Of a stretch of 64,000 bases of DNA, positions 5,361 through 64,000 are shown one piece after another. The position numbers and the translations under genes were made by a program. Numbering within the stretch: the stretch's first letter is position 1; each line of letters starts with the position of its first letter. Source of the stretch: Tubulanus polymorphus (lineage: Eukaryota > Nemertea > Palaeonemertea > Tubulaniformes > Tubulanidae); assembly GCF_964204645.1 (NCBI RefSeq), contig NC_134033.1:5118231-5182230 (forward strand). Reading direction: 5' to 3'. The notes under the pieces were generated by a model that saw only the letters and a program-made list of their open reading frames with translations, was not told the DNA's origin and made no database searches.

Positions 5361-5363
5361 ATT

Positions 5364-13020: not shown

Positions 13021-13068
13021 AATTTATCTCAACTGTTATCGATTAAAACGTATTTCTTCCTATTGCAG

Positions 13069-18654: not shown

Positions 18655-21600
18655 ATGTTGGTTTTGAACGATCTGTTTCGTGATTTTCGCGTATTGGGTC
18701 CCAATGGAACATCGTGGTTGCGTCAAACTAACTATTGGCGTGAACATTTCACTATGACAGTCTATATGATTTTCTATCTGTTTATTTTCATCGTGGTCGG
18801 ATTTTTCGGAAATCTACTCGTAAGTAAACTATCTGGATCCAGTTCCATAGTTGTGTGTATCTAATTTGAATCGGACTCCTGTCCCACCACGGTGGTGTGT
18901 TATCAATCTAAGTCTGGACCCAGATCCACAGTTGCGTGGGTTTCGTTACACTCTGAACCCAGTATAACAGTGTTGTGTGGGTTTAATTCAACTCTGGACC
19001 CAGTTCCACATTCTTGTTTCGTTCACTCTGACTTTGAACCCAGTTTCACAGTTGTGTGGGTTTACTTTTTCTCTGCACCCCCAGTTCCAAAGTGATGTGG
19101 GATAAAGGTAAATAACACGTTCCCAAATGTTTTGATACTTTCTCAGTTTGTATCAAAAATATTGCCAATTTCTGGTCATTGAGTCCTGAAAAATGATAAA
19201 TTTACAGCGCAAAATCGTACAAACGTGTCAATTATACTTCTAAACACTTTATTTGCGGACCAGTTTATGAATTGAGCGTGGGCCATAGAGCGCTATATCC
19301 GCCTGTGATCTCGACTTTCAATTTATTACGTAAGCTATTCGTGAACAAAATGCGGCCGGCGCACAATAGAAACTTCGCTCTATGTATTCTTTCATTACCG
19401 CCGACAAAGAGGACCGATATTTCGCAAATTGGATTCGGGAGGTTTAAACCTCCCAAGGTCAAATCACTAAAATTGTGACCTTCGTGGAGATTATCTAAAT
19501 AGCCGATGGTAATCAAATTTAGCAGAACTTTTTACCCAAACGTTTAATGGTTGAAAATCTTTCAATGGCATTCCTAAGTATTTGATGAAAGTTGAGAAAT
19601 CATAAGATATTCATATAACCATGGACTCTAAAACCTAAATCGTTTAAGAGTCCCTGGTATAAAAAAAAAACTTTGCATAACGAAGAAGCAAAAATTCGAA
19701 TCTGATTCATCTGTTTGGAATTGATTCTTATGAAATGGAAACAAATGCGTGAGCACTACTCATTGATTCGTTCATTATTGTACTATATGTTTCATTTGTT
19801 GACCGTAAGACGTTGACATTATGTCAATTTCATTCAATTTACTTTGCGGCTTTACAACGGCTATTTCACTGGTTCTGCGTGATGAGATAATTCTGATTAA
19901 AGTTATTGTATTAATTTCTATATGTATATACGTAATGATACTCTTTCTGAATAAAGGATGCACGTTATTCGAATCCCCACCATTGTTCTCTACAATGTAC
20001 GTTAATCAAACTCACGATAAAACCAGAGCCAAAACCATGGACTCAATAAAGAAGAATCCGTGGTCAAACATACAATTATAATTTCCCCGTTAGTTCACTG
20101 ATGCCGGCAGTTTCTATCGAATGCAAGGATTCTAGCCAATCAGAGAGGCGCATGCAAACATCCATTGGCATGTAAGTTATAGTACAACTTAGACAATAAT
20201 CAAGGTGCGAGCCAATGTCAGTAACTAGAATATGTTCTTTCATCAAATATATATAACTCAGCAGTAGTCAGTTAGTTGAGTTTGTTTGACTTGTTTTGTA
20301 TTTCATCAATAAATCTATTTTAAAGTACAAACTAAACGCTTGAATTGCTTATAACACGACCAGGTATGAATTAGAATAGATTGGCTTAATATTTCGAATG
20401 CAAATTTGGCGATTAAGCAATCGGAAATTCGAAGTGCTTGAGAAATTTTGCAATACGCCCATTACTTCGAATAGCGATAAGTTCATTGACACATGTGACC
20501 ATTGTTTTGTTACTTTCGATAGCGATTCGAATAAGCTATGCGACAGCTAACGACAGCACAATCGCAATATCAACAGAAGTTCATTTTATCCTACATGATG
20601 AGGCTAAATTCAGTGAAATCGATCGTGTTCTGAAATATATATTTTCCTGGATACATTTTGTTTATTGTAGCTATTCTATGCGGTTTATACATTAACCTGC
20701 TATAACATATTGACCGTTTTCAAGAACCCAAAAATTACAATTTTCTGGGAATCTGTTTTTTCCAAAAACAACCCAAACCCGAAATTGTGTACAGTTAGTA
20801 CGCAGCGTATATAATATCGGATTAGAGAATATTGAAAAAACTTAGAAAAAGTTCAGTGAAGGAAAATAAGCTCAGCAGTGACAAATTGTCATTTCATCTC
20901 CTTCACGTGATTAATTGATGTCCAAATATGTTCTACCGTGAAAACTCTGCATTTAGCGTCAAACGAATTTTTGTATACGTATCTCAGGATGCATGCTCTT
21001 CAAAAAGGTAGCCTATTAGGAAAAAACTTATCCGGTAAAATCCTAATTTGTCCTAAACGATATTCCAACTATTATTTTGTTAATTATTCAACTATCATCA
21101 CTAACTGGGTAAGTTAGTTGAACTTACATAAAGATATATCATTAGGGACACTTCAATTTCATACCATTCAATATCATAAGGGAACAAAATTCTTTGAAAC
21201 TTGGTTAATGGTAGTTCTTAAGACTAGGTTTTGTTTCCGGAATTTACTAAATGTACCAATTCTAATAATTCACTCATTGAAGCTTCTATACATCAGAAGC
21301 GAAAGCTCGTGCGTCGAAATAAATAGTTAACCTTTAAAGTACTACTCGTCTCTTCATTTAAATTCAAGAAATATAAGTCTTTATTGATTCTTTTTTTGTT
21401 GGAATATGCATAACTTTTTCTGGGCAAATTTCTATATTCTGTCAAGTCATGGACGTTTTAGAGTCCATGGTCAAGGTATTTTGGCTATAACGAATATAAC
21501 TAACTCCCTGGGGCAACGATGTGGCTGATGAAATGATCTCTCCCATTGTAATCCCACCATTTAATTACTCATTGTATAACAACTCTCACAATTAAGCCTC

Positions 21601-24600: not shown

Positions 24601-27600
24601 TTTCGCTGTTCGGGTGGTTCTGTAGACTATTGGCTATACCGTTGGTAACTGACTAGCTATTTGTATCACTGATCGGACTGTGAAAATATAGCTTTGACAA
24701 AACCACAACGAGAAATGAATCAAATGCAATATTTTACTCGAAAACGAGCTTAACCACGGAATCAGTAACGTTTTTTTACAGTCCATGGCTGAAATGACGC
24801 TATTGAAAAAATCAATGAGAAATACTGCCTCCGATTTTTATGACGAAAATATAGGAATGAATTCTGAACAGAATCAAATCAGGTTGTTCTTATTGGTATT
24901 GTGTATACATTTATTTCATTTATTAGATATTTCACGTAATTCGTGTAATTAGGAAAAACTCGATCCAATAATTGGTTTTTCTTTCGGTTTTACGTAATTT
25001 ACAACTTACCAAATATGGACTACATGGTTTGACATTAAAACCAGCGAGCATTATGGTATCAAGTTCAACCAAAATTGATAACGATCGGCCTTTCGTAGAA
25101 TCTCCCTGAAGGTCACAATTTTAGTAAATTGACCTTGGGAGGTTTAAACCTCCCGAATCCAATTAGCAAAATATCGGTCCTCTATGTCGGCGACAATAAA
25201 AGTACCCTGCGCGTAACTTTCTATTGTGCGCCTGCCGCGTTTTGGGCACGAGTAGCTTACGTAATCTTAATTGAAAGTTGAGATCACAGGCAGATATTGA
25301 GGTCTATGGCCCACACATAACATCATAAATTGGTCAGGAAATAAAGTGTTTTGAGGTATAGATGACACGTTTGTACGATTTTACACTGTAAATTTATCAT
25401 TTTTCAGGACTTAAGGACCAAAAATCGGCAATATTTTTGATACAAACTGAGAAAGTATCAAAACATTTGAGAACGCGTTAAATCTGGATCCAGTTCCACA
25501 GTTGTGTTGGTTTAATTTGACTCTGGATCCAGTTCTAGAGCTGTGTGGGTTTAATTTGACTATGGGTTTAATTTGACTGGGTTCAGTTCCACAGTTGCGT
25601 GGGTCTAATTTTACTCTGGATCCAGTTCCATGGTCGTGTACGTTAAATCTGACCGTAAATACAGTTGTGACTTAGTCAACCTGTGGAATTCTGTGTATAT
25701 ATCTTATATTCTATGTGGGATGTCTATCACCCATGCGGTTTGACACTTTAATCCATACATGTCGATGAAGAATCGGGTTAACCTCTTGCGAAACTGGGTC
25801 TTGGATCCATTTACACACCTGCCAATCAAACCATAAACCCATACTGCTCTGGATTCAATTTTATTTGGATCAAGTTACATAATACTCACCACCGAATCTT
25901 ACTTATTACTTTTTCCTCTTCATTTCTGCGGTAATTTTCGTTTACGGGCGTATACTAGCATATTATGCAAATTTTTCAGATTATAGCGGCGATAATGACC
26001 AATCGCCGTCTCCAGACATCCGGCAACGCGTACGTAATCAATTTAGCGATAGCGGATTTGGGAGTAACGCTTCTGGTCGACGGTAATAACGTTGCGGGTA
26101 AGTTAAAAATCACTTCATTCAATTTTACTTCAATTGGGATCAATTTAAGTTTATTCGACATTGATTACCACGAATAACGCATCTGTTCGGAATCCGAGAT
26201 ATCATTGCTAGTAAGACCAGGGGCGGATCTAGGGAAATCGGAAGGCAGGAGTCCAGAAGTAAAGACTAAGGTTTTTTTCAGAGAAAGGCGGGTGTCATAT
26301 AGGGGTGGGATCATGGTTTTAGTTAATTTTGAAGAAGAGATGCCATTATCGGAAGTATTATTTTCCAATGTGCAGGTTTGAACAATCCCCCAGGGCGACC
26401 TCAATGGGTCCGGACCCCTGACACCATCCCTTAAATCCGCCCCCGTAACAAAATCGATATCATCTTATTTTTGCATTCGATACGTTCACACTTTCACACG
26501 AGGGTTCAATTTTCATTCACATTGCCAATGAGGGCAATGATTCCAACTCACCGATTTTTGTTACATATTATAATTGCTGTATCGCACTCAGTGTCATGTT
26601 TCGTCACTTTCGTTCACAGGAGTTTTGTTCGGTCACAAAATCTACATCGAACTGGAGTTGGAATGGTTGTGCTACCTGTGTGGCTATCTATGCGGTGTAT
26701 TCTGTTTTACCTCATCCTTCAGTCTGGCCGCCATCGCAATAGATAGGTAACATTCTCATCGGCCGGGATTCGAACCTGATCGCATCGTGAGATGAAACCC
26801 TGCCTGATAAACCCTAGTGCGCAGCTACAAGTGTAGCTTAGATTAAGTCATCATATTAGCCCCGCGTTATTTCAGCCCGGGTTTTTTCCATTCATAGTTT
26901 AACCGTGAAATTTGCCTCGGCGATTATACAATGGCAATCAGATTGGTGGCGCAGGTGTTCTTGCGGCAAACCTGTGCATGTATCTGCACACTCGGGTCAG
27001 AGAAGCAGGGTTTTTGCCGTGGCTGGGTCAAGCGATGCGCCATCAGGTTCGAACCCCTACCGAAGCGAGATGGATAGGTAAAAATTATTACTTAATATTG
27101 AGCGGGTGGGCTAAGCTAATAAAAATGACAAGCTAGATCAACCTGTCCCGTGGAATCTTGAAAATGCAAGACCTGCCTTGTTTTGTGCATTACGAAGTTT
27201 TTACCGATTTGCGGAATGCGACAAACATACCATTCGTGCCAGCTATTGCTCTGCATACACTTCGAGATATTCCCCATTTGAACCAAAAATGACATACAGA
27301 CGCCCAGTGGCGTTTCCATAGACTACAGCTATGTCAGTCAAATATGGAGATACAGCAAAACTCGGGAAACTAAATAACTCACCACATCATCTCGTAAATT
27401 CTTTTAGTTCAAATTTATTTTTCCACTTCAGTTTGCCAAAAACAAGTAGTCATTTGGATAACTTTCGTTTCTTTTCACAGTCCTCGGTGACGACTTATCC
27501 GAGGTTGACTTTACAAGGTTGGCTCCAATCGGAATCGTTGCAAGTGCGCTGAGTATTTTCCTCCGATTTTTTCCGTAGGTTGTTCTTTTTGTGCCACAAC

Positions 27601-31257: not shown

Positions 31258-33915
31258 ATGTTGGTTCTGAACGATCTGTTTCGTGATTTTCGCGTCTGGA
31301 GTCGAAATGGAACATCGTCGTTACGTCACGGTAACTATTGGCAGGAGCATTTCGCTATGACAGTTTATATGATTTTCTATCTGTTCATCTTCATCGTGGT
31401 CGGATTTTTCGGAAATCTTCTTGTAAGTACAATATCTGAATCCAGTTTGACAGTCGTGCGTATTCAATTTAAAACTGCATTTGCGAGTCTTCAATCTTAG
31501 TCAAGTCTGGACCAAGATCCACAGTTGTGTGGGTTTAGTTTAACTCTGAACCCTTCATCAGTGTGGATTTTATTTGACTCTGAACTCAGTTCCACGGTTA
31601 TGTGGATTTTATTTGACTCTGAACTCAGTTCCACAGTTGTGTTGGTTTAATTTGATTCTGAACCCAGTTCCACAGTAGTGAAGGTTTAATATGATTAAAG
31701 ATCACCTTCCACAGTTGTGTTGGTTTAATTTGACTCTGAACCCAGTTCAACAATTGTGTGGGTTTAGTTAAACTCTGAACCCTTCAACAGTAATGTGGAT
31801 TTTATTTGACTCTGTGAACTCAGTTCCACAGTTGTGTGGGTTTAATTTGACTCTGAACCCAGTTAAACAATTGTGTGGGTTTAATTTGACTGTGAACGCA
31901 GTTCCATAATACTTGTCACCAAAAATCTTACTCATAACGTTTTCCCTTTTAACTATGATAAAATTTTTCATTATATGCCATATACGTCTGTACGTAACAT
32001 TTGCATATTATACAAATTATTTCAGATCATAGCAGCCGTAACGACCAATCAGCGTCTCCAGACATCCGGCAACGTGTACATTATCAATTTAGCGATAGCG
32101 GATTTAGGAGTGACGCTACTTGTCGACGGTAACAACATAGCTGGTGAGTTAAATATCATTTTTCACTTTATAGTCACTGATTAATCGACCTTTTTTGTTT
32201 TCACTTTGGGGCCCACGAGTATTTCGTTCGATATATCACAGGGGGATTTATGGGGGGGGGGCTAACAAGGAACGCCGCCCCTATTTTGTCATGATAACAT
32301 AATTGCTTGTTACTTTGTTTTGAGAATCACTCCAAACGCACACAAAATCATCCATTTTCTTACACATATCTCTCGCTCTTCGTGTACCAGTATTACGACT
32401 AGGCCTATGTTTTGGGCCCTTCCTATTCTAAGTACTCTTGGTATTAATACAAACCCGTTTTTCGTTAGATATATTAAAATTGCTGTGTCGCGCACTCAGG
32501 TCATGTTTTGCCATTTTTCGTTCTCAGGGGTTTTGTTCGGTCACAAAATCTACATCGAACTGGAGTTGGAATGGTTGTGCTACCTGTGCGGCTATTTATG
32601 CGGTGTATTCTGCTTCACGTCCGCATTCAGTCTGGCCGCTATTGCGCTGGATAGGTAACTATAGAGATGTCGAGGGTTAACTAATCAAAATTACAGGCCA
32701 GCCACTTGTAAAATCACCGGGAATTCTGATCCCAAAGAATTTGAGGATCCAAGTCCAATTGGTTTTTAGGCATTACAGAGACACTTAACTAATACGGTAA
32801 CGGTGTAATTAAAGATACTTCGGGCGGGTGCCTTCAGCTCATCTCTTTCTTCATTTAGCACCTAGGAATATCTTAACTGAGCCCAAAAAAGGTCTATATC
32901 CGCTGAGCGATGTCACCATGCATTACACCTAAGTTAGTGAAAATTGGATACCCGGTCAATCATACTGTTACGATAAGAAGTGACCGTGGACGCACCAGGT
33001 ATCGAACCCGGGTCACTAACGTGAAAAGCAAGTATGCTAACCAGTAGACCACGAGTACAATTGGCCATTGACTATACAGTCTGTCCTATAAGCGTAACGA
33101 CATCACTAGGCCGTCACTTCCAATTCAGTTTTCCAAATGTGAAAGTAGTCATTCGAGTAAGTAGTTATAGTCATTCACAGTTAGAGTGAAGAGTTTTGCG
33201 AGGTTGACTGTACACGCAATCAGAATAGTTGCAAATGTGCACATTCTTAACTTTTTTTCCTCTCCAATTTTTCCGTAGGTTGTTCTTTTTGTGCCACAAC
33301 AATTTCTACCGCAAGTACTACTCGACGACGACGACCGTTTGCATGTGTTTGGTGATCTGGTCCTGTTCGTTTGTTTTGTGTTTCCCGATGATATTCGGCT
33401 GGTTCAACTGCAGCATCGTGTTCGACGACAAGGTCATGCTGTGTTTCTGGGATCGTCTGGCCGGATTCTGGTGCTCGGTATTCAACATGGGCTGTTTCAT
33501 CCTGCCTATAATCATCGTGTTCGTCGCCTATAGCCGTATATTTCTATTCGTCTGGCGCAGCAAACGCGAATTGAACACGTTTTCCGCACCAGGCTCGGTG
33601 GCTAACAGAATGGGAGGTGGTAAGGCTGACGATACGGCCACCAGACTTGCGAAAACATTCTTCATAATATTCATCATCTTCGTCATCATGTGGCTGCCTT
33701 GGTCGGTGATGAACATCGTCGATATGACAAACCGCTATCCGAAATGGATGGTGCTGATTTTCCTGAATCTAGGTCACGCCAACTCGGCCGTCAACAGCCT
33801 GCTATACGGAGCGACTAACCGAATGTTTCGCGAAGCTTACAAGGATATCTTACTATGCAAATTACTTAACAAGAAACGCAATGTTCGTAAACACAATCCG
33901 AGTACCACAAGATGA
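31258..33915 (+). CDS. Melatonin-receptor-like class A GPCR, gene 2
   Basis: A tandem paralogue of gene 1 with the same four-exon structure: 31258-31422, 32026-32143, 32528-32654, 33279-33915. Phases and exon lengths are identical except for three extra bases in the last exon, giving 348 residues. It shares the N-terminal MLVLNDLFRDF with sequon NGT, NLAIADLGVTLL in TM2, IALDR with the splice inside the DRY-equivalent (DRL), FLCHNNFYRKYYS, LPW in TM6 and NSAVNSLLYG in TM7. Changes concentrate in the N terminus, the third intracellular loop and the C-terminal tail. Introns are short (603, 384 and 624 bp) against more than 7 kb for intron 1 of gene 1. Intron 1 carries a family A minisatellite and intron 3 a tRNA-derived SINE. 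No stop or frameshift was seen. Confidence 0.87.
31500..31915 (+). repeat. Family A minisatellite, intron 1 of GPCR gene 2
   Basis: About nine to ten degenerate copies of the 39-nt unit, sense to the gene, filling most of intron 1. Gene 1 has its array at the same place, so the array predates the gene duplication. Confidence 0.85.
32800..33060 (-). mobile_element. tRNA-Glu-derived SINE
   Basis: Read on the minus strand, 33055 to about 32985 resembles tRNA-Glu: A box TGGTCTACTGGTTAG, anticodon loop TTTTCAC (anticodon TTC) in an imperfect stem, and B box GGGTTCGATACC. A tRNA-unrelated body continues to about 32800. The mismatched stems and the intron 3 position of GPCR gene 2 argue for a SINE rather than a working tRNA gene. 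The family is not identified. Confidence 0.6.
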
Positions 33916-43690: not shown

Positions 43691-44875
43691 TTAGCTTCGT
43701 TTTAGACGCCTACACACCTTTCCACTGGCGATTTCCTCCTTCAGTTTCACCAACGCGTCGTTCAATCTGCAATCGTTGTAAACGTCTTTTCCGAACAGCG
43801 GCATCAAGTTCAGTTCCATTGTGGTGATATTACCTTTCTTGCTGTCCCGAATGATCTGAGCTTTGATGAGATATGAGTCGTCCCTGGTCATTATATTTAC
43901 GACGGCGTCGTTCAAATCGATGCGAGTGACGTAACACCTACCTGCGAGAGTACCCGCTTCAATTTCAGTAACAGAAAACGAATACACGTATACAAGATGA
44001 TGTCACTATTCGTGATAGGTTCCCGGTGCCCAGTTCCACACGTTTGTATGCCGTGCCCAGTTCCACATGGATGTATGTATGATTTACACAACTGTGGAAC
44101 TGGATCCAGAGTCAAATTAAACCCAAACCACTGCGGAACTGGGTTCAGAGTCAAATTAAACCCACACAACTGCGGAACTGGGTTCAGCGTCAAATTAAAC
44201 CCACACAACTGTGGAACCGGGTTCAGTGTCATTTTAAAGCCACACAACTGTGGAACTGGGTTCGTAGTCAAATTAAACCAACCCAACGGTTGAACTGGGT
44301 TCAGAGTCAAATTAAACCCATACAACTGTGGAACTGGGTTTTTCAAATTAAACCCACTCAACTGTGAAGTGGGTCACGTTAGTCAAATAAGAACATAGTT
44401 TTAAAAGATTACCCGTCTTTGTTTCCGTAGTGCGTTTTTCACGATTTCCCACTGAAGTTGATTGGTCATCGGCGCTTCGTCTTTTTACGTCGATCGCTAC
44501 ATGATTAAATCCTTCTGCTCCACTGAGTGACAGCTCGCTGGACACGCCCACAATAATCTACAATTCGAATTGGACACAAAACGAGGGATGAATTTCAGTT
44601 ACATTGACATAAATGAGATTAGAGCGAAAGCTCGTGCGTCAAATAAACTAGTCACACCTAAAAAGTATTTTACCCTGCAAATCTTCTCAAGGAAATTAAT
44701 AGGAAATGCACTATACTCGGGTTAATCGGTCTGGGTTACGATGTCACCAGGTTCGAATACCTGCCCGCGGCGCGAGGATCCTATTTGTAAGGTTGTCGCC
44801 GATTTCAAAGGAGATATTTCTACTTTTGAATGTACTCACGTAGAATGCGCTGACGATCAATATATTCCGGTTCAT
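43691..44875 (-). CDS. Small secreted protein of unknown family, three exons
   Basis: Three exons fit in phase: 44875-44840, 44557-44413 and 43941-43691, with GTGAGT and GTAATC donors and TTGTAG and TCGCAG acceptors. They give a 143-residue product. It opens with a signal peptide split by intron 1 (MNRNILIVSAFY, then IIVGVSS), has a basic middle with possible dibasic sites (VKRR, REKR), and a conserved-looking C-terminal part with three cysteines (GRCYVTRIDL, YNDCRLNDAL, KVCRRLKRS) and one sequon (NIT). I do not recognise the family. A secreted ligand or small extracellular protein would fit. Intron 2 carries a family A minisatellite, in sense with the gene. The exon structure is my inference; transcript evidence is lacking. 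Confidence 0.55.
44028..44370 (-). repeat. Family A minisatellite, intron 2 of the small secreted gene
   Basis: About eight copies of the 39-nt unit, reversed relative to the other arrays and thus again sense to its host gene. Read on the minus strand the array stays open and would encode LCGFNLTLNPVPQ repeats. Splice sites on both sides argue that it is intronic. Confidence 0.8.
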
Positions 44876-45549: not shown

Positions 45550-46790
45550 CAGCTTCGACTGCCGAAAAACGATACATACAAATTCACGAAGCTCTGAAAG
45601 CCAATTGAAATAAGAACGGGCTCTAATGAACTTATGTACCAAAGCTTCGCTTCGCTTTTTCAATACGATCTTAATGAATTAATTTGTCAGCGCGGTTTTC
45701 AAAAGTCAAATCGTTTCGAGTGCTAGCAGGTGGCTAGTGCGCGCGGCGTTCAAGCTGCCACTCATCCGTCAACGAGGATCATTGTTTTCCGGAGTTCCAC
45801 CAGTCATTAATCGTATAGTTTCTCGTTTGACGAAGCGGTCGGAAACAGCGAATGCCGTCGTTGTCTTATTTCTAATTAAAACGAGTTTCTATATGGACAG
45901 CCAGCTGCGTTTGCGCCCTCTGTATTCATTCCCTTATTGCTGTCAGTTATGCTGACATATTCTCGGTCAGCCGTTTTTAAACTATAGTGATTCATACTAA
46001 TGTACGTATATTGTAAACACGATTCAATAAGTCTCTTACAAATCGGTAGTTTGGCTCCACTGAGAAAACTGAAGTTTATAATCAAAATCGTGCAGAAAAC
46101 TAACGGCATGCATCTCACTACGCGCTGTCTCCGATCACAAGAACTCTGTCGGACTGATTTATTTCTTTCCCGATTAAATTGATAAAATATCGACGAGTCA
46201 CTGATGCGCCGTACGATGATTAGCCGATTCGTCACGTTTCAAAACGCTCAGTATTTTACAACTTTAGCAATAACCGCCACGGCGTAACCGTATATTTCCT
46301 ATTTTATGATCCTCCGCCTAGCACTTTAAATAACCGCTAAGATATCGCGGCTCTTTTCCTAATTAGTTATTTTCCACCACGTTTTGATGGGAGAGCAGGG
46401 GGAAAAGAAGTGAAAAATATATTTCCATATTATGGGCGTTTTGAAATGGAAGGGAACAGTAACAAAAGTGGATATAGAATTTCTCGATCGTTCGAGCGCT
46501 ATTGGCAGAACAGATAAAAAAGTGTTTTGTGTCGAGGCATTACGTGGCTTTGCTTTGGGTACAGATAATTCGAGTTGTATGCGAGAAAAATTTCATCGCA
46601 GATTGTTCAAAATCAGTAATAATACAAATAAGACAATTTCGTTTTGATTTGCATTGCAAACTGTTCTAAAATTTCATTTTATGATAATTCGATCATAAAT
46701 GAATTTGAGTAATCGTTCTAAAATATCATTTTAATGAGGACATATATAGAATATCTTTTATCTTCACTGTGCATATTTGAAATGTATACA
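45550..46790. other. Intergenic, no gene recognised
   Basis: There are open stretches here (for example 45737-45955, and 45876-46235 on the other strand), but none resembles a known protein or has convincing splice context. No repeat was identified. Confidence 0.35.
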
Positions 46791-46794
46791 GGGC

Positions 46795-47030
46795 CAGTCT
46801 GGTATTATCTAACCGGTGGTGCCGGTGTCCATTGAATCGCGTTATGACAAACTCATAGTTCATGTTGTGTCCTGTTATTGTCCTCGGTCTTTGAAATCAT
46901 GTAATGCGTGTTCGATTTGAATTGAACCAATTCTGAGGATTAATTCTCAACATTGGTCGAATTCACCATACACGCGCATACATGTCCAGTCCTCTGGCGC
47001 GGTAAGGTGAGTGTTGAATCTCAAATGGAT
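46795..47030 (+). repeat. Left arm of the ~11-kb inverted repeat
   Basis: It begins CCAGTCTGGTATTATC and contains CGGTCTTTGAAATCATGTAA and GAATTCACCATACACGCGCA. It is a diverged reverse complement of 57590-57845. The similarity continues inward as the exon-like modules. Confidence 0.75.
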
Positions 47031-47144
47031 TTATCTATAATCTCATTTGTATATACTTTATTTCGCTTCACCTTCTTACCAATACTTTTTAAAATACTTA
47101 ATCGTTTTATTTAAAATCTTTTTCAGATCAGCAATTTTTTTTTT

Positions 47145-47655
47145 TGATGCCAATACAACGTTTCGACTAAAACCGACACTGTTGACTCGAGACTTATCGA
47201 CGAAATTCGTAGAAAGCTCCTAAAATGGGTGGTGAGTTTTCGGAGTTTACTAGTGGATATTACGGACAACGATTTTCTTGTATCGAAGCAAATCTCACAG
47301 TTCTAATCGTATTCATGGCGTTTTTTTAGATTAGCCTTTCTTCTTCGGAACTCATTGCGGTCAATGCCCCCGCCAAACCAACACGTATGCAAGGGACGGC
47401 AGTTCTTGCTTACTTCATCAGGACCTGATTGCTGTCAATTCTTGCTGACTAAACCAACAAATACGCATTGGACTGCATGCCTTCCTCACTTCTCCAGGAC
47501 CTGATTGCTGTCATTTCTTGGACACTCGCTTGGACAACCCGATCCGATAGGCGATTCATCGGATCTGTGTACTGTGCCTAAGATAATCATAGCTTTTATG
47601 GGAGATACACGTTTAACTGATCGAAATAATTCACGGAGCCACATTAATGAATTGG
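47145..47655 (+). other. Exon-like modules A and B, left-arm copy
   Basis: Module A runs from the acceptor TCTTTTTCAG (about 47145) to the donor GTGAGT at about 47230. Module B runs from the acceptor GTTTTTTTAG (about 47330) to AATTG/GTGAGT at about 47655 and contains GACCTGATTGCTGTCA twice. Both correspond in order, spacing type and splice borders to minus-strand modules at 57.3-57.4 and 56.97-57.19 kb. Coding capacity is poor. Confidence 0.5.
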
Positions 47656-47659
47656 TGAG

Positions 47660-49300
47660 TAGAAGTTTTAATTTTGATGTGTAGGCAACTTAAATTCGAT
47701 CGGATTTAAGCTTGGTATAAACAGATTGACCCTCGGCACCGCAAAATTAGACTCCTATAACTCCTCCCTCTTAACTCGAATTGTTTGAATTTGTATGTGA
47801 TAACTCGATTTTAGAACGGAATAGAGATTAATTTTTGATAAACTGTTATACTATCATTAGACGCTTTAAAACAAACGAGATGTTCGTTCACACAGCGCAC
47901 AAGTTTATAAGTAGACGTATATGCTGAAGCTTGATGAATATAAATAGAAAATATCAACAGCTAAGGCCACGCAAAAATACACTTGTTTCTAGTCAGCCTT
48001 TCTTTAAAAATAATGGCGGGTTTTTATTTTGACTTCCTTTTTCGGAAAAAAAGAAAAGGCCATTTCACAAATCCCAAAGTGACGAGGTAACAATCTTTTT
48101 TCTCTCATTTTGCAAAAGGGGAAATTTAGGGCTTAACGACCTTGGGATCATGATGGAAGGCACCTCATTACCGAAATGCTCACATGCCACAGTAACAATT
48201 GAGAAGCGACCGTGAGACAAAAACATTAAAAAGTCTGATCAGTTTTGTTTTTCGCGATGCGTGCGGGAGCGTTTTACTCTTTTTAAAAGAAACTACACAG
48301 ATTTCAGCATGCCAGATTTTTTCTTTTTTATCTTTTTACTGGCGAATCTTTTTTGATGCAAGCGGAAAATTAGCGTGGCCTAACAAACATTTTACGCGTA
48401 ATTGCAAATATGCGTGATATAAGATTTCTAAAAAGTCATTTAGGCTAATGTTTCAAACGTGAATACGACAGGTTCGCTTTATAATTGATCGAAGTTTTTC
48501 CAAAAAAGAAAACCACATATATTTTACGGCTGATTTTCTAGTTTAAATCCTAGAATAAGGCACTCTTAATTTGAATATGTAAACCGTAGGTTGATCGTCA
48601 CTAGGAAAATTTAAATTCAATAGTTGTCGAAGGTTCTGGTTAATCATTTTCAAATCTATGGATATGCAATAAGTGGCTAGTTGATTAGTTGTTAGATTTT
48701 TGCCCTTTGGGTATATTCAGGCGAGCGAAAATAGGGTCAGCGTGTTCTAAATAACGGAACTTGCTGATCAAACGGGCAGCAGGTTTTAGTAGAATCATCA
48801 ATGATGTTACTAACTATCGGAAGTGCTTCTCCCTAAAAACATTACAGTATTGTACATGTGAGCTGCAGTTGATTAGTTCTTTTCCTGAATTCAATGTGTT
48901 TATCATTAATCCATCTATCTATTCGGCTTCAACTTTCATGAAAATTTAAGTTAAATCAAAAAAAATTGTTAATTATCACAATAACACCAAATCTATCATA
49001 GAAAGTGACGCAACGTTTGTGAACGAGTTTTTCTAGTAACTTACTCACCGATCAAGTAACAAATGTTTCCCTGCCTATTTGTCTAACAACAGTAAATTGA
49101 ATTCATCGATAAAAGTAGAAATGTCAGATTCATGGCAATTGGACAAAATCTAATCGATATATCTATTGGTGCATTGGTTCTAAAATTTGAGTTCCGATCC
49201 AAAAAGAGAATTTCTCAAATAATTTAAGTTGGGAGTTTCATGATATGATCCATATATCCATCGGAAATAGCAAAATTGGATTAACTGACAAAATATCTTG
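47660..49300. other. Left-arm interior, no gene recognised
   Basis: AT-rich sequence between the exon-like modules and the recombinase 5' fragment. No coding exon is seen. Confidence 0.35.
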
Positions 49301-49309
49301 ACATATGAT

Positions 49310-49545
49310 GATCGGGTTTGACTATTTCATGGAATGGCTTCTTATTGTAATATAATATCATAAAAATGTACGGTTCCTCCGAGTTCGGAGATCGTGGCGT
49401 TTTACTACAAAGAGTTGTTCTAAAAGAACGCAACAGATGTCGCCTTCGCTAATCTACACTTGTCGTAGAGTTTTTTTAGGAGACTTATGAGGCCAGCTCG
49501 GTGGGCGCAGGGCGGCGCTCCGGCCAACTGACGGATTCGGGTTAA
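49310..49545 (+). pseudogene. 5' fragment of tyrosine recombinase gene, left copy
   Basis: This is homologous to the first ~230 nt of the recombinase region at 54440-54680, in opposite orientation. It includes GACTATTTCATGGAATGG and an ARWAQGGAPA-like reading corresponding to ARWAEDGAPAHRR. Stops interrupt it, and it ends near 49540 where other sequence begins. Confidence 0.7.
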
Positions 49546-49559
49546 AAACGGCTGTTGCT

Positions 49560-49860
49560 CTGCAGGTCAAAGTTGATCTAGCGCAGCTATATTAACGTTG
49601 TATCGGGCCAGTTCCCTGGCGACAAGCGCCGTTTCTGGTCTATTGGATCAGTGTTCGCACGTTCCATGTGCCGAATTTGATCAATGTATCTTTCTTTGGT
49701 CGACCGCCAGGTGGGGATTCCTGCCAGCCGCGGTTTGCTGGCCAGGTGAAGATGAAGCAGGCTATGTTTGAGACACCTTTTCTAGTCCCTTCGCCAGCAG
49801 AGGGGTGAGCAGAGTGGATCCTGAAAATCAGGGCTGCTCAGACACTCAGGGGGCTGTCGA
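49560..49860 (-). pseudogene. LINE 5' end and endonuclease fragment
   Basis: On the minus strand a leader with a Gly/Pro-rich segment (PPGGRPKKDTL) leads to KFGTWNVRTL, then, after frame damage, RPETALVARELARYNVN and IAAL. This is the start of an exonuclease/endonuclease/phosphatase domain as in RTE-like LINEs and CFDP2-like proteins. The similarity stops near 49560 at the junction with the recombinase fragment, and no reverse transcriptase follows. Confidence 0.6.
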
Positions 49861-50254
49861 CCTCCATTTTTGCTTCATTCCATTGAGAGAGCGACCCTAT
49901 GCCCTATCGATACTTTGGAAATTCTTGTGTTCCTAGAGTAGGTAAGTGAAGTGTGAAGCCATCCGAAATAGTCAAACCAATACAGTTTGTGATAGCGAGG
50001 GTCCATCTGTAATGCAGTTATCAATCAATGTCTAGGAACCATGGGCCCCTTCAGACATTTACCATTTTATGCATTGGTTCAAATACTGTTTCGAATCAAT
50101 CATATTAGACACGCTGATTGTAGTGATTTTTTCTTGCTATAGCGGTTTAATTTTCTTGCTGAACGCTAAAAGATTGTAGACGTGTCTAAATGTTATCCGT
50201 CATAACCGTCTTTTGACTTGGAAAATTTTGCTTTTAATCAATCAATCAGGGGTC

Positions 50255-51235
50255 AACACTAAATACCCTGCGCCTCACCACTGTTGACGGTGCCCGCGTC
50301 ACGCATGGGTGAACACTAAATACCCTGTGCCTCTCCACTGTTAACGGTGCTGGCGTCACGCTTGGATGAACACATGTCTCCCTACTGTTGACGGTGCCGG
50401 CGTCACGCTTGGGTGAGCACTAGATACCCTGTGCCTCTCCACTGTTGACGGTGCCCGCGTCACGTGTGGGTGAACACCTGTGCCTCCCTACTTTTGACGT
50501 AGCCGGCGTAACGGTTGGGTGAACACGGTGCCCGCGACACGCATGGTTGAACACTTAATTTGGTTAGACACTCCCTACTGTTGACGGTGCCGGCGTCACG
50601 CTTGGGTGAACACATGTGTCTCCCTACTGTTGACGGTGGGTGAACACTAAATACCACGTGCTTCTCCACTGTTGATAGCGGTTCCGGCATCACGCTTGGG
50701 TGAACACTAAACACCCTCCCTACTTTTGAAGTTGCCGGCGTAACGGTTGGGTGAACACGGTGCATGGTTGAATCACTTAAAACCCTGTGCCTCTCCACTG
50801 TTGACGGTGCCGGCGTCACGCTTGGGTGAGCACTAGATACCCTGTGCCTCTCCGCTGTTGACGGTGCCCGCGTTACGTGTGGGTGAACACCTGTGCCTCC
50901 CTACTGTTGACGGTGCCGGCGTCACGCTTGGGTGAACACATGTGTCTCCCTACTGTTGACGGTGGGTGAACACTAAAATACCACGTGCTTCTCCACTGTT
51001 GATGGCGGTTCCGGCATCACGCTTGGGTGAACACTAAACACCCTGTGCCTCTCCACTGTTGACGGTGCTTGCGTCACGCGTGGGTGAACACCTGTGCCTT
51101 CCTGCCTCCTAAATACCACGTGTCTCTTCACTGTTGGTGGCAGTGCCGGAATCACGCTTGGGTGAACACTAAATACCCTGTGCCTCTCCACTGTTGACGT
51201 GGCCCGCGTCACGCGTGGGTGAACACATGTGCCTC
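50255..51235. repeat. 58-bp minisatellite
   Basis: About 16 copies of a GC-richer unit of roughly 58 bp with core TCCACTGTTGACGGTGCC and GGGTGAACAC. Several copies are shortened or partly duplicated. Two orphan units occur at about 54870-54975. Open frames in it are by-products of the repeat. Confidence 0.9.
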
Positions 51236-51484
51236 TAGACTCTAGATTTACACTTGCCGCAGTTTTGAACAAAAACAGAACAGAATGGTTTCCACAGTAA
51301 TTATATTCAGAATCTGCCATCAAGAATGCTGTCCTATTTCCTTGCTGAATCCCACTCGTTGCTGGAGACCAGAAAGGCCATCACGTCTTCATTTATTCAG
51401 CTCACTGAGAAAGTACAATCAACATAGCTTAAGTCTTCTTTGTTGGGAGAATCGTTAAGATGATGATTTAGTGTTAAGTCTGGT

Positions 51485-51770
51485 AAACGAGGGATCATCT
51501 GTTGGTCGGAAATAGCAAAAACCAGGCTAGTGAAAAGTCCATTTCCGTCATGAATTCGCCGGTGGGCCGGAGCGCCATCCTGTGCCCACCGAGCAAGTCT
51601 ACTGAAAAAACTCTACGACAAGTGTAAATTAGCAAAGGCGACATCTGTTGCATTTTCAAAACCACCATTCGTAGTAGCCACAATCTCCGAACAACCCGGA
51701 AACTAACACATTCATAACAGTATTACAATAAGAAGCCTTTTCGTGAAATAGTCAAACCCAAACTTCATGG
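51485..51770 (-). pseudogene. 5' fragment of tyrosine recombinase gene, middle copy
   Basis: It has the same orientation as, and close similarity to, 54440-54680, including CCGGGTTGTTCGGAG, the Arg-Trp-Ala segment and CGGTGGGCCGGAGCGCC. It is truncated just before the sequence for the catalytic part. It marks the left edge of a direct repeat (51485-52850) matching 54440-55975. Confidence 0.75.
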
Positions 51771-52850
51771 GACCGTTATATCGACCCTGGACCAATCAGA
51801 TATTTCATTCATAATTTCAGGCAAGCAGACGATCTACACTAATTAGAATCAAAGATTTAGAACAAAATTGCCATTGTGTTTATTGAATACGACCACCTTC
51901 ACTAGCCTATAGCTCGAATACTCTTAGGTGCTGTATCAATGTCTATGGTTGGAAACACCTATAATCTCGGAAACAATTTATTCGGAATATTATGATTCTA
52001 CCGTTATCCGAGTTTGCTGTAACGAGGATTCACGCTGTAGCGAGGATTACACGCGACCTAACCTGAGTTCCCTATACAACAAACAGGTAAAAATCGTTTA
52101 CTCACCAATTATTGAATGTAGTTTCATGGATCATTACGATCTTTTCCTAGTTATCTTCTCCTTCTAGGAGATATGACATCCAGATACAGCCCTAAGATCT
52201 GTCCGGTCCAGGTTGGTTTAGTCAGCAAACATCGAAAGCAATGATTGGGTCCCGAGGAAGTGAGGATTGAAGTCCACTAAGTACTTGTTGCTTTAGTTAC
52301 CACGCAATGACAGCAATCGGGTCCTGAGGAAGTAGAGCTTCTCTGAAAAAGACCAAAAAAAATCATCACCGTTATGATTTTTAATTTGACTTGATACATT
52401 GTAGTCTGCTATATGCGGTATTAAACATATTCACCCACCACCAATTTCTGTATGGAGCATCATGGGTTATTTTGAAAATGTTTGGGGTCAATTAGTGTCA
52501 GTTTAGTCAGCCTCGAGGTGAGAAAAGCTGATCCGAAACAGAAAACAATTCCATATTTAACAAGTTTTGATTCTGACTGGAATAAATATTCTTCCTGTCG
52601 GTTTAGTCAGCACAAATTGGCAACGTTAGCAGGAATGCCTTATCTAGAAAAGCAACCAATGGTTCAATCAGATTTGACGCTTATTTGTTATATCCAGTTT
52701 TGAACACCAAACAGTTAGGCTTTTTACTTAGATTTCTTGGAGTAAGGATTTCTGCAAGAAAAATATTGGGAGGGCAGAGGAAAAAAAATTTAAAAAAGTT
52801 TTCCTAACAATACGCGTTTTAAAATGAAACGGAAGAGGACAGAAAATTAC
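51485..52850 (-). repeat. Direct repeat copy 1 (recombinase upstream region)
   Basis: It matches 54440-55975 over its length in the same orientation, with small indels. Shared landmarks on the plus strand are GGCAAGCAGACGATC, CACCAATTATTGAATGTAG, AGTAGAGCTTCTCTGAAAAA and GGTTCAATCAGATTTGACGC. It holds exon-like modules at about 52092-52345 and 52440-52550 (minus strand). Confidence 0.75.
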
Positions 52851-52854
52851 AATT

Positions 52855-53295
52855 TTTGGAACTAAAATTTCCGAGTAGTACTTTCCGAGTAGTTTTATTC
52901 CAATTTGGATTTATCGCCAATGGTTTTTCTATACGACCCGGCCCTGCGGTATTTCATTTAGCCACTGGCGAAATCCATCTTTTTACGTCATAGCAGACCC
53001 AAAAATGCAGCTATGCGGGGCAGGTGGGTGGGATTCCCACCATAGGAAAGGGTAAGTACTACTCGGAAGTACAAATTTTAGTTTCAAAAATTGTAATATT
53101 TCCGTCGAGTACTGTACCCTTTCCTATGGGTTTTGCTAGACTAGCCTAGCACAAGGATGGTGGGAAAGGTAAATAGAAAAACCACCGCTCAAACGCAAGG
53201 TAAAAGAGCACTTACCCAAGCACGGAATGGAGCACTGTAGCACAGGGAAGACCGGTTGGCCACAGTGAGTCCGTCCAGCTCAGGGGTCCCCTCCC
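52855..53295. other. 3' region of the recombinase unit
   Basis: This holds a ~40-bp inverted repeat pair, ATAGGAAAGGGTAAGTACTA near 53042 and its complement near 53112-53135. It may be terminal or subterminal sequence of the recombinase element. It contains no gene. Confidence 0.4.
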
Positions 53296-53299
53296 TGTT

Positions 53300-54680
53300 C
53301 TACGCTAAAGAGTCCGATCCGAAAGAACGGACACATTGAGCCATAACAACAGGACCGAGTGATGCTAATGAGCACAACTGGCCTGAAACATCCCGTAAAT
53401 AAAATGACGTGGATGTCGATGGAGAATTCCAAAAGGCGGCCCGACAGACTTCTTCGAACGGAGCACCTGAAAAGGCTGCGCAGGAAGTAGCCAAAGACCT
53501 CACTTGATGAGAAACAACTCCCTCCGAGGAAAGATTCTCTTTCAATAAAATGTCCTTGATCAGTGAAGAGACCCATCGGGCAACTGTGTCCCGAGAAATA
53601 TCACTCTTCAGGTGATCCAGCAGCGGAATAAATAACCACTCCCGCGAACCCCTTTGTGGAGCAGAGCGATCTAAATAGAAACACAACGCCCGGACAGGAC
53701 ATAATGTCCTGTCCAGAAGACCAGGTTCCACTCGATGTTGTAGGGCTTCAATTCGCCATTGACGACCAACCGAGCCTGGCCGTTGGTTCTTTGCCAAAAA
53801 CTCCAAAGCAGGCCGCAGCGAAACAAATTCCTTCGCTGGGCCGAAGACATTATTATGACCTTGTCGCACTGGAAGCGCGTGAATCTCAGAACGACGGGCC
53901 GAGCAAGCCAAGAACAGCAAGCATTCAGTCTTTTTTGACAAATTCGCAAATGGCGATGCAGAAAGAGCTTCAAATGGAGCCTCCATTAATATCTTCAAAA
54001 TTACAGACAGATTCCATGGTGGAACTATCCTCGGTACCCGAGGCCGGTAAACAGAAAACCCTGCAACAAGCTGGGATATCCGATGATCCCCTGTTACATT
54101 TGGTCGTCCAGAAGCACGCAATGTATGCGGAGTGGTAACCTTTAATAGTTATAACCTGCAAACCTTTTACTACAAATAGATGCAGTAAAAATCTGCCAAT
54201 TGAGCTACAGAGGGTGAGCATGGATCAATTTCCCCTGCAGCACACCAATCCGCAAAATGACCCCATTTGGCATCGTAAATGGTACTTGTTGATGGCCGCT
54301 TAGATCCTGCGATAAAAGAGGCAGCCTGTTCCGAAAAGCCTAAAGCTGACAAGGATCGCTGGACAATTGCCAGGCGAGTAGATTTAAGCAGTGGCTGTTT
54401 GGGTGACGCCGAAAGTTCCCCTGAGACAGAAGCGATGATAAATTCGGAAGAATCCTGGGGTTGTCGAATTCGCCGGTGGGCCGGAGCGCCGTCCTCTGCC
54501 CACCGAGCTAACCTCCCGAGTGTTCTGAGAAGGCGACATCTGTTGCGCTTTTCAGAACCACCCTTCGTAGTAGCCACAATCTCCGAACAACCCGGAAACT
54601 TACACATTAATAACAGTATTACAATAAGTAGCCATTCCGTGAAATAGTCAAACCCAAACTTCACGGGACCGTTATATCAA
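53300..54680 (-). pseudogene. DIRS-type tyrosine recombinase, frameshifted
   Basis: Read on the minus strand, the N-terminal SAM-like part includes GSKRPSTSTIYDAKWGHF and DPCSPSVAQLADF, and continues in a second frame from about 54196 with LLHLF and ITIKGYHSA. From about 54121 a third frame runs unbroken for 273 codons to 53300. It carries the first catalytic Arg (SARRSEIHAL), the His-x-x-Arg pair (HQVRSLAT), a Trp (AAFWNSPST) and the nucleophile Tyr (SFYLRDV). The pattern fits YR domains of DIRS/Ngaro retrotransposons better than Cryptons. The first break looks like loss of one T in a T run; the second lies near 54125. The catalytic residues survive, but one continuous protein cannot be made. 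No reverse transcriptase or RNase H lies nearby, so the element is incomplete or of an RT-less type. Confidence 0.75.
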
Positions 54681-55975
54681 CCAGTTATAACCCGGCTTAT
54701 CGTCCTTGACCGATCATATATTTTATTCATAATTCCAGGCAAGCAGACGATCAAAACTAATTTGAATCAATGATTTAGAACAAAATTGTCTTATGTTTAA
54801 TGAATACGACCACTTTCCCTATCCTTTAGCTCGACTACTCTCAGGTGCTGTATAAATGTCTATATAAGGTGCATGCATGGGTGAACACTAAAAACCCTGC
54901 GCATCGCTTCTGTTGACGGCGCCGGCGTCACGCATGGGTTAACACGAAATGCCCTGTGCCTCCCCACTGTCATAGCCAACTTTTACAATCAGTTCGTTTA
55001 ATGGACAGTTTTAGCATTATTTGAGCGTGATTTAGTTTTCCTATTTTCATGCGATTTATTTTGTAGGGTACCAATGATGTCAGGAAATCGAGGACTCGTG
55101 GCCCGAAGATGTGCAAGGTTTAAAAATGTCTATGGTTTCAAACACCTATAATCTCACACAGTTTATTCGGAATCTGAGTCTCCGTATCCGAGTATGCTGT
55201 AACAAGGATCCATCTGTGTTTAAAAGAGTTTACACGCGACCTAATCTAAGTTCCCTACACACAACAAACAGCTAAAATTGTCTACTCACCAATTATTGAA
55301 TGTAGTTCCATAGATTATAACGACCTTTTCCATGACATCCAGGCTACAGCGCAAAGATCTGCCCTGTCCCGGTTGGTTTAGTCAGCAAGCACCGAAAGCA
55401 ATGATCGGGTTCCAATGGATGTGAGGAAAGTGAGTCCAATGAGTTTTTGTTGGTTAGGTCCAATTGACGCATTGACAGCAAGCAGGCCCCATTAAGCGAG
55501 GAAGGCAATAAGTCCACTACTGTTGGTTAAGTCCAGCACGCACTGACAGCAATTAGGTCCCGAGTAAGCGAGGAAGGTCTGAAGTTCACTAGGTATTTGT
55601 TGGTTAAGTCCAGCACGCACTGACAGCAATCAGGTCCCGGGTAAGCGAGGAAGGTCTGAAGCTCACTAGGTATTTGTTGGTTAAGTCCAGCACGCGCTGA
55701 CAGCAATCATGTCCTGAGGAAGTAGAGCTTCTCTGAAAAAAAAACACATAATAATAGCAACGTTAACAGGAATACCTTATCTAGAAAAGCTGGTTCAATC
55801 AGATTTGACGCTTATTGAAGTTTGTTACATCCAGTTTTGTACAACAAACAGGCTTTTTACTTTGATTACTTGGAGTACGGATTTTTACAAAAAGCTAAGT
55901 GGGAGGGCAGAGGAAAAAACAGTTTTCTTTACAATAGGCGTTTTGAAATGAAACGGGACAGGACAAAAATACGAA
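54440..55975 (-). repeat. Direct repeat copy 2 (recombinase 5' end and upstream region)
   Basis: The counterpart of 51485-52850. It adds two orphan 58-bp minisatellite units (54870-54975) and an expanded run of about four to five 77-bp units (55370-55730), each with GACAGCAATCAGGTCC and GGTTAAGTCCAGCACGC on the plus strand. Confidence 0.75.
55290..55730 (-). other. Exon-like module B with expanded internal repeats
   Basis: On the minus strand the module opens after TTTTTTTCAG with AGAAGCTCTACTTCCTCAGG, passes through four to five 77-bp units, and closes at ACATTCAATAATTG/GTGAGT. The copy at 52092-52345 has the same acceptor and donor with about two units. The 77-bp unit is not a multiple of three, and no frame stays open throughout. 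Confidence 0.45.
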
Positions 55976-56967
55976 TAATTTTCTTTTATCATTTGAGTAT
56001 TTTCAACATAAAATCTTCAGAAGAAATTAAAAAAAGAGTAAAAATTGTGTTGTAATTGATTTAAATAATTGGCGAAATGAAAACACTAATTTTTTGCAAA
56101 TTGCAAAGATAGAAAATTGAGTTTTACACGTTACTAGATTGAAAATGAAGACGGACAAAAAATTTTTTTAATTTGATGACATTTGCAGAACTCTGGGAGG
56201 CAGCTCCGTACCCCAATTATTTGAAAAATTAGGTTGGTTACTCTTAAGTTGGGTAGAGGTAAAAGGAGGTAATGTGTCTAAAGTCAACTTGACTTGAGAG
56301 CACATCAGGTGGTCTAATTCAGTCATTCTCGGTAGTACATGCCTACCATAGATAATAACCTGAATAAATTATCTGATAAATATACACATGAATATTCTAC
56401 TTTAACGTAGGAACGTTATGGCTTAACCAGAGTCTCTAAAAAAACACTTCCGTCATTTTTGAAAGAATGCCTCGACAAACATCGATTCACGTATCTTCAG
56501 TTTTAACCGAGAACCTTAGTGTCTGATGTACCACAGTTTATTACAGTAGGATCGTAGAGCGGCGGAGATCACTGCGGAGACAACTACTTCAAGGAGTATG
56601 GGTGAACTTCATATATTACTGTAAACACCGAAATATTTTCTATGTAATTCAACTAAGTTCCAACTACGTATATGTTTACAGCTCTTTAGCCGTTGAGAAA
56701 CTTGACACACAACAAAAAGAGGTTTCTGAATTTGGTGCAATATCTTACGAAGTTCGTTGGAATATTAGAAACGGTTCTATATTTTTTTCTAGTGAGACAC
56801 ACGCCTAGCTCTAAACAATGACTATGCAATGACCACACACATTTCGATTTAAGAGGTTATTATGGGTCTACTGTATCCGAGTTTGCTGTACCGAGGGTCC
56901 TTCTGTGTGATGATGCTTAATCCCGACCCAAACTAAATATCCTATACAAGATTAAAATTTGTACTCA

Positions 56968-57395
56968 CTAATTCATGGGCGGAACTTCATGGATAATTTC
57001 GACCAGTTATGCTTTCCTTGGAAGATATGATAATCAGAGCAAAGACCTGTCGGACCAGATGGGTTTAGTCGGCAGGCATCGACAGCAATCAGGCCCGAGG
57101 GGAAGCGAGGTCCACAGTACACTGTACATTTGTCGGTTTAATCCGCTCTATTGACAGCGACCCGGTTCCGGTGAAGATGAGCTCATCTGAAAACGATACA
57201 ACCAACGATCACCATGATTATATTTTAATAATAACTCTATACATGTGCTTTGGGGTCCAGCATTAAACAATACCAAATCTACTCACCACCAAGTTGTACT
57301 GTGTGAAGCATGGCGGATTATTCGAAAGGTCTGGCGTCAACGGTGTTGGTTTATTCAGCCACGCGATACAAGCAGCAATGCGGTATTGAGTGAAC
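56968..57395 (-). other. Exon-like modules A and B, right-arm copy
   Basis: On the minus strand, module A opens after TTTTTTCAG near 57412 and ends TTGGTG/GTGAGT near 57290; its third frame is open and includes LNKPTPLTPDLSNNPP. Module B opens after CGTTTTCAG with ATGAGCTCATC near 57190 and ends CATGAATTA/GTGAGT near 56968. The order and borders match the left arm at 47145-47655. Confidence 0.5.
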
Positions 57396-57589
57396 AATGA
57401 CTAATCTGAAAAAAAAAACAAACAATTGCATTATGATTTTAAGTTTTTAAGATCGCCGGTTTATAAGGGAATGCGAATTCTCGAAGCCTACCTTCGAACG
57501 GTAGATTCGTTAATCTCTTTTGAAACTGGTGGGCCTAATTCGTTGTTCTCATTCGATTTGGTTTAAAAATTCAGTAGATTTGCAAATCC

Positions 57590-57845
57590 CTCTCAAGATT
57601 CATCCCACCTAACCGCCCGCGCGGACTGTGTATGTATGCGCGTGTGTGGTGAATTCAACGAATGTTAAAGAATTAATCCTCGAAACTTGTTCAATTCAAT
57701 TCGAACGCGTATTACATGATTTCAAAGACCGAGAACAATGACATGACACAATGTGAACTTGTGTCCTAACACGGTTCATTGGACAGTGTAAATGCACTGT
57801 GAGACTACTACGTAGCAATGCTGGATAATACCAGACTGGTACTAT
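57590..57845 (-). repeat. Right arm of the ~11-kb inverted repeat
   Basis: A diverged reverse complement of 46795-47030. Its outer end contains AATACCAGACTGG, and the inner part GGTGAATTC. No clear target-site duplication was found outside the arms. Confidence 0.75.
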
Positions 57846-62196: not shown

Positions 62197-64000
62197 CTAT
62201 TTAGATGATGTCAATCCTAATCGTCGTTTATTGCGTTCACGAATAGATTTCATATCGATAGTTAGTATTGTATAAAGAAGCGGATTAAGAGACGAGTTGA
62301 TCGGTAAAAATAGAACGGCCAGCCAAGCTGCCACCTGGTTCGGTATCTCGACCGAAAATACGGCGCAAAACTGAACGATTATTATCGGTAGCCAGCAAAA
62401 TAAATTACAAAGATTGATTACTAAACTCCTTCGAGCTAAAACCAGTTCGGTAGGATCGGCTCTACCCGAGCCCGACCTACTTCCAGATACGAGTCTATAC
62501 ATCTGAGCGTACGTCGTCATTATCGTAGCCAATATGACCGCATTGACCAAGGCAAAAATAGCGAACGAATAGTGCCAGCCATTGATGTCGATCGTCAGTA
62601 AATTCATAGGCAAACAAACTCCGGTTGTACCGTAAAAATTGTCTCCGAAGTAAGACGACGATGACAGCGGTAGAATAGAAACTGTGCTTATAACGAGCCA
62701 ACAAATGCAGCAAATACCGATAAAGTATTTCGGAGTTATAATCGGACTTCTAGAAAACGGGTTGACGATCTCTTACGCGTTAGAATTAAGAGAAAAGTTA
62801 AGGAGCCTTCGCACGAAATTGTGACAATAACCCCGGCTAGACGACATAATGAGCTATCCGTCCAGGTTTCAGAATTCAGATAATAAACGCCTTTGAACAC
62901 GGGATCAGCTCCTGCAATCAAAAACAAATAGACCGACATCAGAAAATCGCAACCGGCAATATTTATGATGAGGATATTAATTTGAAGATGTGTTACGTGT
63001 TCCGGAGGATTACATCCGCAAAGCTTGAACGCGAAACATAATAACGATACTGTTAGCGAGAAAACTGAAAGATGCGATCATCCAGATGATGGCCCTCAGT
63101 ACAGTGTTACCCATCAGGTCAGAGCAGGTCGAAAATTGATCAGCTTCGGGAAGACATCGATCAACATTCGATGCCATGCAGCAAAATTTGTAAGCATCAG
63201 AAGCGAGGTATTTCAGTGATGTAAGATCGCCAAAAACGTTTCTTTGTACGGATATCACTTCGGAATTTTTTACAAAGTCTAGAATTTCAAGTCCAACCAA
63301 TCCGTAAAAAGCGATATTCGAAATATAATGGATTCTGTTATTGCTGATATTTAACGACTGTAATGCGGATAAACCTTTAAATGCATATTCACCGAGAAAC
63401 GATATAGAAAGTCCGTGAAGATCGAGAACAGTAAGTGACGTCAGACCTCGGAAACTACCGTCTTCTAAATGTTGCAGCGGATTTCCGATAAGATATAGTT
63501 CTTTTAAACCGATCAAACCTGCGAATGTATTAGCAGATAATGATAATGGTTTAAATTAGAAAACGCGTTGGGAACGATGTAAGACAAATTAGCACCCGAA
63601 ATATCGAGAAAACGAAGATAAATGAAAGAGTTGAACGTCGACTCGTTAAATACGACTCGGTTATTCGACAAAATCAAAACCCGAGTTGATTCTATAAAAC
63701 GACTAGTAATATCTGATAAGACAGCATTTTCACAATCGATGAAATGACCCCGACAATGACAACGTTCGGGACAGGTGACCTTACAATATGACTCGTCATC
63801 TGAGTTATGTTTACAATTTACGACACCGTCGCAAACTTCAGATTACGGAATACATCGATTTTCCTGACCACATTTAAACATTCCCGGACACGACCAAGTC
63901 TCGCAGTTTCGTTCATCTTCTGAATTAGGACAATCGGATCGACCGTCACAAACGTGTCTGATTGGTATACAGTAAGATGCCGGACATTTTACAGTACCAG
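62197..64000 (-). pseudogene. GRL101/relaxin-receptor-like LDLa-LRR-7TM GPCR, decayed copy 2 (cut by window end)
   Basis: The same intronless domain order as copy 1, read inward from the right edge: LDLa repeats (about 64000-63760), LRRs (about 63690-63200; GNPLQHLEDGSFRGL), Cys-rich hinge (FCCMASNVDRC), TM1 (about 63080-63010), TM2-TM3, and TM4-TM7 ending NPLLYTILT and a basic tail at 62197. Its defects differ from copy 1: a stop in the second LDLa (CIP then TAA, where copy 1 has Gln; about 63845), a shortened LRR near 63545, a stop at about 62986 just after TM1, a ~4-nt insertion near 62970, and a ~10-nt loss at about 62770 before the second intracellular loop. The second half (from about 62760) stays open through TM4-TM7. 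The 5' end lies outside the window. Confidence 0.85.

Follow-up and report, generated by a model that had tools for sequence, protein, structure and literature searches.

The window analysed here, a stretch of 64,000 nucleotides, corresponds to C9:5118231-5182230 of a host assembly of 267.8 Mb in 77 contigs. Its two ends are occupied by broken, inward-pointing copies of an LDLa-LRR-7TM (GRL101-like) receptor gene, at 1608-3703 (+) and 62197-64000 (-), in which the open frames reach 175-191 codons, whereas intact genomic copies have frames of ~1,100 codons. The receptor family is very large, with 423 first-look 7TM candidates in the genome, among which the 7TM exon was scored in 150. The receptors also possess a CUB-type exon of ~420 codons, separate from the 7TM exon (domain assigned by eye from sequence), and their expansion in tandem arrays with this CUB-type exon spans C4-C12. 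Within the window, a common minisatellite occurs at five sites (12505-13039, 18825-19107, 25478-25666, 31497-31906, and 44082-44390), and a 149-aa frame at 43912-44361 (-) reads as NPVPQLCGFNLTL repeats.

An earlier note on this DNA had described two recurring exon-like modules, A and B, each at three sites. Comparison of the window with itself by BLAST establishes both as real repeats (51988-52515 against 56858-57363, E=2e-21; 47411-47513 against 55724-55621, E=1e-19; 51938-52324 against 55125-55489, E=7e-66). The three sites of A (47.2, 52.5, and 57.3 kb) stand, but B is present at four (near 47.5, 52.2, 55.5, and 57.1 kb). The 47 kb copies lie on the plus strand and all other copies on the minus strand, and the two sets converge. 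A third module, P, had been overlooked; it precedes A as a conserved block ending in the exon 1 donor and provides the strongest self-BLAST match linking the sets at 47 and 57 kb (46826-47021 against 57785-57596, E=1e-43). On sequence grounds, P starts a gene-like unit in which A and B are the predicted exons 2 and 3. In the window, the plus strand carries one such unit (46.79-47.65 kb), and the minus strand carries three that are partly truncated (R1, R2, and R3; 57.79-52.1 kb).

In the plus-strand unit, the P block with predicted exon 1 spans 46788-47006 and is followed by the donor GTGAGT at 47007-47012; it is 82-89% identical to many copies on C9 and C22 and 80% identical to the opposite-strand 57785-57596. 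Predicted exon 2 (47127-47231), aligned with 12 other representatives, is preceded by TTTTTCAG and followed by GTGAGT, and predicted exon 3 (47330-47654) contains two ~76 bp tandem units. With a slash marking each border, the unit reads in order AAG/GTGAGT, TTTTTCAG/A, GTG/GTGAGT, TTTTTTAG/A, and TTG/GTGAGT. R1 comprises a P block with predicted exon 1 (57609-57785, -), predicted exon 2 (57287-57405, -), and predicted exon 3 (56969-57186, -), the latter two placed by alignment and border listing, and its borders read TAG/GTGGGA (a weakened donor), TTTTCAG/A, GTG/GTGAGT, TTTTCAG/A, and TTA/GTGAGT. R2 lacks exons 1 and 2; its predicted exon 3 (55290-55732, -) is expanded by 77-bp tandem units and has an intact CAG and GTGAGT. 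In R3, predicted exon 2 (52439-52532, -) has a broken acceptor (TTTCGG) and the donor GTG/GTGGGT, and predicted exon 3 (52106-52342, -; alignment and border listing) retains both CAG and GTGAGT. Across the window copies, AG and GT are kept at nearly all borders, and these copies are old, partly decayed members of their family.

Between R2 and R3 lies the truncated 3′ fragment of a DIRS-like retrotransposon with a tyrosine recombinase (52843-54466, -), which the recombinase ORFs at 53.3-54.66 kb overlap. The fragment is 86-92% identical to DIRS-like copies on C5, C7, and C11 (L080-L082), elements with RT/RNase H-like and tyrosine-recombinase frames whose domains were assigned by eye; a Pfam search of the recombinase ORFs gave no domain at cut-off. 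The N-terminal part of the ORF at 54170-54664 belongs to a neighbouring local repeat rather than to the recombinase. At least 141 copies of the fragment exist in the genome, on all large contigs, and it is absent from all ten of the long module loci inspected in other parts of the genome. The recombinase is an inserted element unrelated to the modules.

The local repeat (GAATTCGCCGGTGGGCCGGAGCG...) is present at 54466-54863 and as an inverted pair, at 49305-49538 and 51552-51768, on either side of a minisatellite with ~47-57 bp units (GGTGAACACTAAATACCCTGTGCCTCTCCACTGTTGACGGTGCC...) that occupies 50247-51240 and has an outlying copy at 54876-54970. The same repeat occurs 3′ of the modules at four other loci (L027, L030, L032, and L033), and at some of them it forms an inverted pair ~2 kb apart.

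The module family was mapped by DNA searches and exhaustive pattern scans of the genome, which located 51 P-core and 44 exon-2-donor sites, with none for the reversed-pattern controls. Approximately 85% of these sites are on the window's chromosome, C9, mostly between 0.8 and 5.8 Mb, with few on C22, C8, C33, C12, C6, and C11. P is the best-conserved piece and stands alone at several sites (C8, C12, and C33), while isolated module copies are found on C6, C8, and C11. The copies vary in extent and in decay, and their alignment revealed neither a common sharp terminus nor a sharp 5′ boundary. In the copy at 0.82 Mb (L033; C9:817000-821500), the TTAGGTTAGG seed of intron 3 is expanded into a TTAGG tandem run, and at L025 a LINE-type element bearing a reverse transcriptase is inserted in the exon-4 region of the module copy (4315-6229).

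The earlier note had credited the modules with little coding capacity, and none could be recognized. Exon lengths take all three residues modulo 3 among copies that are ~92% alike, and the copies compared share no stop-free frame and show no codon-position bias at variable sites. In four of five copies, the longest ATG ORFs are close in length to those of shuffled sequence, and an 86-codon ORF in one copy (fraction 0.028 of shuffles, uncorrected) is not shared by the others. With exon lengths that fall in every frame and no ORF retained, the family looks non-coding, and coding exons or a small peptide are rejected on these grounds. Conserved RNA structure was also rejected as a candidate: an Rfam covariance-model search gave no significant match, RNAalifold found P and exon 3 to be no better than shuffled, and the marginal signal of exon 2 (-1.9 kcal/mol, z=-4.3) is too weak to use.

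Conservation of the splice borders was assessed in 13 genome-wide exon-2 representatives less than 90% identical to one another. In this sample, the acceptor hexamer TTTCAG and the donor hexamer GTGAGT both have a mean conservation of 0.987, against 0.765 and 0.764 for the other 6-column windows; 4 and 3 of 188 windows, respectively, score as high or higher. Among the six representatives less than 80% identical, the exon-2 borders score 0.972 against 0.701. The exon-3 donor (0.917 against 0.712) is the best of 121 windows, with 0 of the 120 others as high; the exon-3 acceptor is equalled or exceeded by 20 of 133 windows, a weaker test because internal repeat units enter that alignment. In a deeper set that includes copies from C6, C8, C9 (5.8 Mb), and C11, the donor ranks first of 203 windows, a conservation that is partly due to query selection because the pattern that led to these four copies contains the donor, and the acceptor scores 0.875, with 18 of 202 windows as high. 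Because the copies are kin through segmental duplication and not independent trials, all of these ranks are descriptive and are not p-values. The exon tests use local hits because whole-unit alignment forces non-homologous ends together; in the whole-unit alignment, the exon-4 acceptor shows no conservation.

The proposal that borders are better kept than interiors therefore holds between old lineages, but not among recent copies, in which exon identity (0.90-0.94) is approximately equal to intron identity (0.87-0.97). Owing to this equality, no constraint on the exon interiors is seen. Some copies have broken sites, such as the acceptors of R3 and the C8 copy, and no spliced-form retrocopy crossing the junctions was found among the best 40 candidates. 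The resulting picture is one in which splice signals and the putative promoter core are retained in the long term while exon interiors are little constrained, and the retention of the borders suggests that splicing matters.

One alternative is that the modules are the remnant of a repeat or transposable element with functionless splice-like motifs. Although the variable extent and decay of the copies, the solitary P blocks on C8, C12, and C33, the isolated copies on C6, C8, and C11, and the parallel evolution of exon and intron in recent copies are all consistent with such a remnant, the concentration of the family on one chromosome rather than genome-wide, the lack of a common sharp terminus in the alignment, and the survival of donors and acceptors beyond the remaining sequence over deep divergence count against it, and it appears to be the less likely reading.

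A second alternative concerns the receptors beside which many modules are found, namely those with the CUB-LDLa-LRR-7TM (GRL101-like) architecture. Of the 42 strong exon-2 copies, 24 are head-to-head (divergent) with a CUB exon and lie 1.3-4.7 kb upstream of it, and 18 of these 24 additionally point at a 7TM 3′ end on the opposite strand less than 6 kb downstream, with many modules antisense toward the 3′ end of the preceding receptor. The fixed head-to-head position is a property of these 24 copies and not of the window copies, near which there is no CUB exon, or of most receptors. Modules accompany only a minority of the C9 and C22 receptor genes, and 12 further CUB upstream regions contain no full module within ~1.5 kb.

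The modules could instead be alternative 5′ leader (UTR) exons of the receptors, with P as the receptor promoter and exons 1-3 joined to a far-downstream coding exon on the same strand. Ten copies do have a CUB exon on their own strand 12.8-15.4 kb downstream, but ~24 copies face away from the CUB exon closest to them, and no gene or exon is evident in 9.3 kb of one such interval, where module and CUB exon are 13 kb apart; this also speaks against a hidden coding gene there. At three loci, a pattern scan places the P-core in sense at a distance of ~440-450 bp upstream of the CUB start codon, with a further, diverged case at L066; the CUB promoter of L066, however, has a local TATAAAA-like core of its own (by eye). 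At C9:3444487, another GPCR frame lies on the same strand as the module, starting ~1 kb past the exon-3 donor, whereas no receptor on the module strand follows the window, 1.62 Mb, and 2.46 Mb copies within the sequence inspected. Conservation of the last donor leads one to expect a further exon, as leader exons would have it. On balance, a role as receptor leader exons is doubtful. The suggestion in the earlier note that the modules could serve as 5′ leader exons for the recombinase, with which they share a strand and a neighbourhood at 52-57 kb, can be dismissed, as the modules are mostly on one chromosome and the truncated, multi-copy DIRS-like fragment is on all of them, sits here between two module units, and is missing from the other module loci examined.

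The reading that we favour, at a probability of roughly 0.6, is that the modules constitute a multi-copy family of spliced, non-coding genes that was amplified along with the GRL101-like receptor arrays. It draws on the observed anatomy, copy number, geometry, border conservation, and lack of an ORF, and the repetitive non-coding transcript envisaged in the earlier note is compatible with it, given that splice borders outlast the interior of modules devoid of coding capacity. The full unit would consist of P (promoter and exon 1), exon 2 (A), exon 3 (B, with 77-bp tandem units), and probably additional exons, with the predicted exons joined by short introns of ~100-200 bp, and the family would have spread by segmental duplication along with the tandem CUB-LDLa-LRR-7TM receptor arrays. 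A promoter-associated divergent non-coding transcript fits because of the presence of P, the canonical short introns, the absence of an ORF, and the strand opposite to the receptor. The family is predicted to be transcribed, spliced in vivo, and functional: most likely, P would drive the divergent transcript, and what matters would be splicing rather than sequence, for example if an antisense transcript in the receptor spacers were stabilised or terminated by splicing.

GRL101-like arrays have been implicated elsewhere in chemosensation (PMC6267866) and in snail resistance loci (PMC12297450). Since the modules are linked to arrays of this type, a regulatory role is worth checking. If the modules are transcribed, a single genome would offer dozens of natural replicates that keep their splice signals and promoter core as the exon sequence drifts. 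This would allow a direct test of whether selection preserves the splicing or the transcription of a non-coding RNA and not the sequence of that RNA. If they are not, the module family would be a decaying passenger of segmental duplication.

Clusters of GRL101-like receptors are exemplified by SudRes2 of Biomphalaria sudanica, which resembles the present arrays in its tandem LDLa-LRR-7TM receptors, but has a C-type lectin where the receptors here have an N-terminal CUB-type exon, and the genome here has hundreds of candidates; the passages considered make no mention of non-coding modules (PMC12297450). DIRS-like tyrosine-recombinase retrotransposons account for the neighbouring recombinase. 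Repeat-rich spliced lncRNA genes have short tandem units in non-coding exons and splice sites conserved more than the exons. The module exons are similar in both respects, but unlike such genes, they exist as dozens of copies that cluster on a single chromosome. Among clustered protocadherins, a protocadherin alpha antisense lncRNA is known. Plasmodium var genes are also associated with an antisense lncRNA (PMC6305453). In contrast to both, the units described here are separate, multi-exon, and predicted to be spliced, lie at a distance of ~1-4 kb and not within an exon or intron of the receptor gene, and are paired with only a minority of receptor genes. As in both, clustered and similar surface receptors have members paired with opposite-strand non-coding units, which here are predicted. 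By analogy with these antisense lncRNAs, one might guess that the module RNA regulates the receptors; the more specific and improbable extension of this idea is that a promoter element shared across the huge GRL101-like receptor family could drive a separate spliced antisense non-coding RNA beside many members and thereby help to set receptor choice, as an animal analogue of the protocadherin or var systems.
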